DNA of 50,906 nt from Candidatus Kryptoniota bacterium (GTDB taxonomy: Bacteria; Bacteroidota; Ignavibacteria; Kryptoniales; JAKASW01): positions 1-50,906 of the forward strand of contig JAHECO010000027.1 of the NCBI GenBank assembly GCA_024641705.1, read 5' to 3'. How positions within the stretch are numbered: the stretch's first letter is position 1; the number at the start of each line of letters is the position of its first letter. Of the stretch, positions 20,993-29,253 are shown one piece after another. A program made the position numbers and the translations under genes. The notes beneath the pieces were generated by a model. It was given only the letters and a program-made list of their open reading frames with translations. It made no database searches and was not told where the DNA came from.

Positions 20993-21183
20993 GTACGCCC
21001 AGTTGGACTCGAACCAAGAACCTTCGAGGCTGTCCAGAAAGTCTTGTCTGTCATGCTGAACGAAGTGAAGCATCCATTTTTCAGAACGAATAAGTGGATT
21101 CTTCAGTCGCTCCGCTCCTTCAGAATGACATTTTCCTTGTTTTGGGACAACCTCTGCTCTATCCAAATGAGCTATCTCTGACC
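20993..21183 (-). pseudogene. tRNA-Arg-like copy 1, anticodon arm occupied by a 129-bp palindromic element
   Basis: The 3' part (T arm and acceptor strand, 20993-21024) closely matches the intact tRNA-Arg at 21365-21438, and the D-arm part resumes at 21155-21183. Between them, exactly where the anticodon arm belongs, is the inverted-repeat element 21026-21154. The 5' acceptor strand (TCAGAGA) does not pair with the 3' strand (TGGGCGT), so it cannot be a normal tRNA. Confidence 0.75.
21026..21154. mobile_element. 129-bp MITE-like palindromic element, copy 1
   Basis: Terminal inverted repeats GAGGCTGTCC and GGACAACCTC (9 of 10 match) bound two inward-facing arms of the TGTCAT-CTGAA-GAAG type that recurs in many bacterial genomes. 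It is identical over all 129 bases to the inverted copy at 29125-29253. It has no coding capacity and no obvious target-site duplication. It sits inside a tRNA-like sequence. Confidence 0.75.
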
Positions 21184-21388
21184 AGACATTGAAATTTCGG
21201 GAAATGGGATATAAAAGGCGGGGGTATCTAGTACGCCCAGTTGGACTCGAACCAAGAACCTTCCCGACTCAGCAAGCTGAGTCGGGATGCTCTATCCAAA
21301 TGAGCTATCTCTGACCAGACATTGAAATTTCGGGAAATGGGATATAAAAGGCGGGGGTATCTAGTACGCCCAGTTGGACTCGAACCAA
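21155..21388. repeat. 101-bp tandem direct repeat derived from a tRNA locus
   Basis: 21155-21255 and 21288-21388 are identical over 101 bases. Each runs from the D-arm half of one tRNA copy, through a 47-base spacer, into the T-arm half of the next. Together with the third 3' half at 20993, this shows that a tRNA unit was tandemly duplicated. Confidence 0.85.
21231..21316 (-). pseudogene. tRNA-Arg-like copy 2 with 12-bp palindrome in place of the anticodon arm
   Basis: The T arm and 3' acceptor strand (21231-21262) and the D arm (21288-21309) match the tRNA pattern. The anticodon arm is replaced by a perfect palindrome at 21262-21287: TCCCGACTCAGC, AA, GCTGAGTCGGGA. The 5' and 3' acceptor strands do not pair. 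It is unlikely to be charged, but it could be transcribed by read-through from the tRNA-Arg promoter. Confidence 0.75.
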
Positions 21389-21438
21389 CAACCTACGGCT
21401 TAGAAGGCCGTTGCTCTATCCAATTGAGCTATGGGCGC
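21365..21438 (-). tRNA. tRNA-Arg (anticodon UCU)
   Basis: A full cloverleaf on the minus strand: acceptor GCGCCCA pairs with TGGGCGT, D arm GCTC..GAGC, anticodon stem ACGGC/GCCGT with loop CTTCTAA (anticodon TCT), T arm with TTGGTTCGAGTCCAA, discriminator A. CCA is not encoded. It reads AGA (and AGG by wobble) codons. It is the only intact member of a three-copy array. Confidence 0.93.
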
Positions 21439-29124: not shown

Positions 29125-29253
29125 GAGGTTGTCCCAAAACAAGGAAAATGTCATTCTGAAGGAGCGGAGCGACTGAAGAATCCACTTATTCGTTCTGAAA
29201 AATGGATGCTTCACTTCGTTCAGCATGACAGACAAGACTTTCTGGACAGCCTC
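29125..29253. mobile_element. 129-bp MITE-like palindromic element, copy 2
   Basis: Terminal repeats GAGGTTGTCC and GGACAGCCTC. The whole element is the exact reverse complement of 21026-21154 (129 of 129 bases by eye), which indicates recent movement or gene conversion. No flanking target duplication is evident. Confidence 0.75.

Follow-up and report, generated by a model that had tools for sequence, protein, structure and literature searches.

The array downstream of the tRNA-Arg(UCU) gene in this window (the whole 50,906-nt stretch of DNA analysed here) probably consists, at odds that we put near 0.7, of two ORF-less units of a widespread family of tRNA-embedded mobile elements. Members of this family are associated with a GIY-YIG nuclease, appear homing-like, and duplicate half of a tRNA in a way that leaves the host gene functional. 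We class the window units as ORF-less derivatives and not as complete family members, because the GIY-YIG ORF between the tRNA and the pseudo-copy is absent.

Two interrupted copies behind tRNA-Arg(UCU)

The array comprises the following features, listed in their direction of transcription.

21364..21438 (-): intact tRNA-Arg(UCU), the host gene of the array (ARAGORN; Rfam RF00005, 73.9 bits with Infernal)
21309..21363 (-): spacer 1, without an ORF; a GIY-YIG ORF lies at the same place in other family members (sequence)
21288..21309 (-): left arm of copy 2, a D-arm remnant (GATAGCTCATTTGGATAGAGCA; direct repeat D3)
21262..21287 (-): palindrome of copy 2, TCCCGACTCAGCTTGCTGAGTCGGGA, in the anticodon-arm slot (positions 27-43; inverted repeat I2; homologous hairpins in genomes G010 and G012)
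21234..21261 (-): right arm of copy 2, with the variable loop, T arm and 3' acceptor strand of tRNA-Arg (direct repeat D2)
21177..21233 (-): spacer 2, identical to spacer 1 (107-nt repeat D1)
21155..21176 (-): left arm of copy 1, a D-arm remnant (direct repeat D3)
21026..21154 (-): 129-bp high-copy palindromic MITE-like element in the hairpin slot of copy 1 (copies in its own genome; ends and flanks)
20996..21025 (-): right arm of copy 1, the tRNA 3' half, with the native flank directly after it (repeats; alignment to the empty site of genome G009)

The original prediction of an intact tRNA-Arg(UCU) followed on the same strand by two tRNA-derived copies was borne out by ARAGORN, by the repeats and by Infernal on the minus strand. 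A 107-nt block made of the tRNA 3' half, the spacer and the D arm occurs twice (21288-21394 and 21155-21261; 99% identity) with a start-to-start distance of 133 nt, and a 21-nt D-arm block occurs three times, so that the repetition of spacer and D arm was recovered as described. The claim of a matching T arm held in part: the 34-nt 3' end of tRNA-Arg is present three times, and both copies have lost the first T-stem pair through a G-to-C change. The length of the repeats and their recurrence in other genomes exclude a chance origin.

The 26-nt palindrome of copy 2 (two 12-nt arms with 2 nt between them) and the 129-bp element of copy 1 were both found where they had been placed, and each replaces exactly ACGGCCTTCTAAGCCGT, the entire anticodon arm. 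The 5' acceptor strand, said to pair no longer in the extra copies, is missing from both. Neither copy was called as a tRNA by ARAGORN; in Infernal, copy 2 aligns to model positions 7-64 with only 21.9 bits, short of the gathering score of 29, and it forms no canonical cloverleaf with an anticodon in either program.

The 129-bp element is an ordinary high-copy repeat, with at least 40 near-identical copies in its own genome. Its high copy number and the imperfect terminal inverted repeats at its ends (GAGGTTGTCC/GGACAGCCTC) are those of a MITE, and the flanks examined have no consistent or clear target-site duplication. In copy 1 the palindrome arms are gone, with the final GA perhaps left, and the MITE that now fills this slot may either have replaced the palindrome or have arrived together with a deletion. 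We note that a further copy of the MITE lies in the window at 29125-29253 (+).

In a genome of the same genus (G009), the same tRNA is joined directly to the flank that follows the last copy in the window. The two flanks match through GGGCGTACTCC, and sequence further downstream is likewise conserved. Because G009 has this empty site, the window array can be placed between the tRNA and its native flank, and the array spacer is foreign to that flank, which disfavours a plain tandem duplication. Presence at tRNA-Arg(UCU) is patchy, the site being empty in G009 and occupied in G000, and the same tRNA is accompanied by units in G010 and G012, whose homologous hairpins (TCCCGACTCGACTTCTCGAGTCGGGA and TCCCGACTCAACTTCTTGAGTCGGGA) differ by compensatory changes.

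The tRNA-Arg(UCU) gene was not found in three near-complete drafts of the genus (G002, G006 and G007), and it lies near contig ends in three others (G010:C2, G008:C5 and G012:C17); arrays of this kind may therefore break assemblies and hide essential tRNAs.

In the genome from which the window comes, 47 matches to RF00005, one of them weak, indicate about 46 tRNA genes, eight of which have hairpin-interrupted copies. Four of these tRNAs have units that carry a nuclease ORF, namely Pro(CGG), Gln(UUG), Met(CAU) and Ser(CGA), and four have units that do not, namely Arg(UCU), Val(CAC), Leu(CAA) and Ala(UGC); ORF-bearing and ORF-less arrays therefore coexist in one genome. In addition, an orphan unit (L225) stands at a contig end; the units to which it is similar are those of tRNA-Val(UAC) in G006 and G008.

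Architecture and spread of the units

In a complete unit, the intact tRNA is followed by a short GIY-YIG ORF that begins at or near the tRNA 3' end, then by the pseudo-copy and finally by the native flank. The pseudo-copy derives from the same tRNA: it retains the D-stem 3' strand and the tRNA 3' half, and between them a palindrome substitutes for the anticodon arm, a T-loop hairpin being present in addition or instead. The window array fits this plan: beside an intact tRNA stands a partial copy that has a palindrome for the anticodon arm and whose tRNA half faces the native flank.

A hairpin of the TCCCGA..TCGGGA type takes over exactly positions 27-43 in copies of tRNA-Arg, -Ile, -Pro, -Val, -Leu, -Thr and others, and further families of the class have hairpin-interrupted copies behind tRNA-Pro (three 156-bp units) and tRNA-Arg. 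A second hairpin slot is located in the T loop, between C56 and G57 (G011, G005 and G023), and in G256 both slots are filled. The original prediction had proposed that palindromes were inserted into anticodon loops. Palindromes do occupy tRNA loops in general, but simple loop insertion within an old tandem tRNA array does not describe their placement. The whole stem-loop is replaced, and the units have no 5' half because of the way they are built: a spacer or GIY-YIG ORF comes first, the D-stem 3' strand next, then the hairpin and, last, the tRNA 3' half.

The anticodon-arm junctions, which the prediction had suggested seeking in other genomes, were found by a pattern (hairpin, AGG and T arm) in at least 119 public loci, mostly of Bacteroidota; the pattern is keyed to CCCGA..TCGGG and biased toward that hairpin. 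Among the matches listed are also Acidobacteria, Chloroflexi, Patescibacteria, Neomarinimicrobiota and Verrucomicrobia-like genomes, and a few of the matches are probably due to chance. Only this generalised pattern found matches: an exact search of public genome contigs with the window palindrome gave none. Within the phylum, 296 genomes yielded 33 pattern matches in 19 genomes, against 0 for a reversed-pattern control. The junctions are also present in a single-contig genome (G123) and in a complete Chitinophaga chromosome (CP079103.1).

Where a matching tRNA lies within 1.5 kb of the unit (n = 72), 56 units are identical to its 3' half over 31 of 31 bases, and the left arm of the units is strongly conserved over about 6 bases. 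The first stem pair of the hairpin, which the pattern leaves free, is paired in 104 of 107 cases, with 58 expected. Hairpin sequences vary between genomes and between tRNAs, and those at tRNA-Pro and tRNA-Met have other sequences altogether (TGGCGCG.. and TCCGCC..). Two or more units occur at 23 of the 119 loci listed, with a maximum of eight. At L077 and L099 the arrays lie upstream of the tRNA and keep its 5' half instead of its 3' half; mirror-image units upstream of the tRNA, seen at L087 and L147 as well, consist of the tRNA 5' half, the hairpin and part of the T arm.

Some units and hairpins stand in other surroundings. The rRNA operon of G009 contains a partial tRNA-Ile with a hairpin where the anticodon arm would be, and interrupted tRNA-Ile and tRNA-Ala units are found in rRNA operon spacers at L060 / L156 and L245 (G000:C83), a position seen directly for L060 and likely for L245. 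Units in such spacers would be co-transcribed with the rRNA. Hairpins of TCCCGACTC..GAGTCGGGA lie outside tRNAs in L063 (1501-1528) and L067 (1501-1528), and one of this type in G002 adjoins the apparent end of a group II intron reverse transcriptase.

The GIY-YIG nuclease

Long spacers (about 250-300 nt) encode a protein with a GIY-YIG domain and a length of about 80 residues (Pfam PF01541, E about 1e-15 to 1e-17), and the ORF typically fills the space between the tRNA and the pseudo-copy. A small GIY-YIG ORF on the same strand is found within 700 nt of the unit at 53 of the 119 loci listed. In the 119 loci, which together span 797 kb, 39 GIY-YIG ORFs lie directly upstream of a unit on the same strand, at a distance of 100 nt or less; apart from the GIY-YIG domains that have a unit no more than 700 nt away on their own strand, only 4 were found. 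The tRNA-derived left arm supplies the end of the ORF in several units; at L219 the last codons and the stop are formed by the tRNA-Gln sequence GGCGTAGCCAAGTGGTAA. One tRNA-Ala array of Chitinophaga sp. E66 (CP079103.1) contains several units that lack the GIY-YIG ORF and ends with one that carries it; the hairpin is the same in every unit, and the array thus bridges the ORF-less and the nuclease-carrying forms.

In a tree of 96 GIY-YIG domains, which is based on a short alignment and has many unresolved forks, nucleases linked to one tRNA type tend to cluster, even where they come from different genera or phyla. A Met group joins Bacteroidales with Gracilibacteria, and an Ile group joins two Acidobacteria genomes. 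The tree requires 19 changes of tRNA type; 300 label shuffles, which do not fully remove host kinship, averaged 37.6 and never gave fewer than 34. Within the genus alone there are 7 changes against 13.2 when shuffled. The tRNA-Gln nucleases of five species have dN/dS values of about 0.07-0.22, and the enzyme is therefore under purifying selection to work. The closest solved structures are those of UPF0213 proteins (BH0048, 1zg2; EF2693, 1ywl) and of the structure-specific nuclease SLX1. One GIY-YIG query against phage and plasmid collections gave no match.

A second clade of small GIY-YIG proteins in the genus, with a YTGVT motif (L214 1313-2567, L202 and L195), is not at tRNAs; its ORFs stand among arrays of ATTCCCG..CGGGAAT palindromes. 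By analogy with RAYT and REP, this neighbourhood suggests a wider partnership between GIY-YIG enzymes and palindromes.

The main rival of the homing reading is an enzyme that acts on the palindrome, being specific for structure or for palindromes, with TCCCG..CGGGA as its partner in the manner of RAYT with REP and the tRNA as only a safe harbour. We consider this unlikely, in that the nucleases cluster by tRNA type, the tRNA arms are conserved and the hairpins at tRNA-Pro and tRNA-Met differ from that partner sequence, even though the resemblance to UPF0213 and SLX1 and the palindrome-associated second clade would both suit it.

Proposed mechanism and known systems

We return to the reading of the units as homing-like elements and infer that the nuclease cleaves DNA, that the elements home and that the hairpin plays a part in this. 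The nuclease would cut its tRNA gene in the middle where that gene carries no element, and repair from an element-bearing copy would insert the unit via homology in the two tRNA arms. The duplicated tRNA half would keep the host gene intact, with the palindrome standing in for the cut region in the pseudo-copy. Tandem arrays could form if the restored tRNA were cut again, or by unequal exchange between identical 3' halves, and ORF-less units such as those of the window may be deletion derivatives or satellites mobilised in trans. In their anatomy the units look like the outcome of an insertion into a tRNA that is split and then restored on one side of the insert; in most units the tRNA 3' half is on the native-flank side.

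Several points weaken this picture, the variation of hairpin sequences between genomes and tRNAs among them. The element-bearing allele retains an intact tRNA, which is a potential target of its own nuclease and weighs against homing. The nuclease gene adjoins its presumed target gene in relatives but not in the window array, and no nuclease ORF was found in any tRNA-Arg(UCU) array examined in the genus, which weighs against assigning the window units to the family.

That the units are functional tRNA-like RNAs (decoys, tRNA competitors or processing signals) with an extended anticodon arm, the nuclease being a hitch-hiker, seems to us quite improbable. Such RNAs could account for the compensatory changes that keep the hairpins paired, for the folding of copy 2, which is far better than in shuffled sequences (z -5.4), and for unit 3' halves that are often identical to the tRNA, but not readily for the missing 5' acceptor strand, the exchange of hairpins for unrelated palindromes (the 129-bp MITE included), the patchy presence illustrated by the empty site of G009, the upstream arrays of L077 and L099 with 5' halves, or the strong association with nuclease ORFs. 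The decoy role raised in the original prediction gained no support here, and neither did a regulatory RNA role.

Scars of islands or prophages that a tyrosine recombinase had placed at the 3' end of the tRNA, with attR copies left behind, would likewise produce direct repeats of the tRNA 3' end and displace the native flank downstream. This is a very improbable origin: units of 133 and 238 bp are too small for an integrase gene, the pseudo-copy includes a D-stem strand and a conserved palindrome, any gene recognised in between is a GIY-YIG gene, and versions with the 5' half exist. Integrase att scars were rejected, no integrase being seen among the eight neighbouring ORFs scanned. Equally improbable are inert tRNA pseudogenes (tandem duplication with chance palindrome insertions) or misassembly, to which the degenerate, ORF-less window units and the arrays near contig ends in several drafts would point, since the same junctions occur in at least 119 public loci, the complete Chitinophaga chromosome among them, and in single-contig G123, and the spacer is not native flank. 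Duplication of the tRNA gene with random insertion was ruled out by the same spacer and by a slot that is exact at many unrelated loci. An integron attC-like reading was also set aside; T-stem sequences differ in other families (e.g., G023), and the resemblance to a core site is thus incidental.

We regard these tRNA-embedded elements as relatives of the GIY-YIG homing elements, and there is a fair chance that they form a new class. Rather more tentatively, and at somewhat less than even odds, they would form an undescribed minimal selfish class in which tRNA-type-specific, single-domain GIY-YIG enzymes home into essential tRNA genes in many phyla, the missing tRNA half serves as the rescue, palindromes disarm the displaced copy, and the window holds non-autonomous satellites. 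If the homing-like reading holds, many unexplained tRNA-fragment arrays and orphan small GIY-YIG genes of Bacteroidota and other phyla would belong to one family of mobile elements that inhabits essential tRNA genes without harm. Such a family would be a natural parallel to engineered home-and-rescue gene drives, and the coexistence of a nuclease with its target could be studied in it in a simple form. It would also serve as a warning that tRNA annotation and draft assembly can break at tRNA arrays.

No description of an architecture combining tRNA, GIY-YIG nuclease and hairpin was found in the open-access literature (subscription journals lay outside the scope), which for tRNA-linked GIY-YIG elements in bacterial chromosomes led mainly to fungal mitochondria and to phage SegB. 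Among mobile elements at tRNA genes, ICEs and prophages carry part of the tRNA, such that insertion leaves a functional gene, as the units here do; unlike these units, they encode recombinases and are kilobases long, and we know of none with a palindrome in place of the anticodon arm. The E. coli tyrT repeat units (rtT RNA) also follow a tRNA in tandem, and every repeat contains some of the tRNA 3' end; unlike our units they have, to our knowledge, neither a nuclease nor an anticodon-slot hairpin. REP/RAYT and the rickettsial palindromic elements share the small palindromes and, for REP/RAYT, a dedicated enzyme, which is of another class, and they are not known to have the half-tRNA copy arrangement.

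The UPF0213 / COG2827 proteins, the closest solved relatives by sequence, are of similar size to the nucleases here, and the consulted portion of a GIY-YIG superfamily survey (PMC1564403) does not mention linkage to tRNA genes. SegB of T-even phages is described, in excerpts of two papers (PMC13096335, PMC2988022), as a free-standing GIY-YIG homing endonuclease in the phage tRNA cluster, and thus adjoins tRNA genes as do the nuclease-bearing units. SegB differs in that it belongs to phages whereas our units are chromosomal, in that our nucleases are single-domain proteins of about 80 aa, and in that those excerpts make no mention of a hairpin-interrupted half-tRNA copy. According to the excerpted text of PMC13096335, SegB cuts DNA of the tRNA region and drives tandem amplification of a tRNA segment via homologous recombination, and it thus sets a precedent for tandem amplification brought about by a GIY-YIG enzyme acting on tRNA genes.
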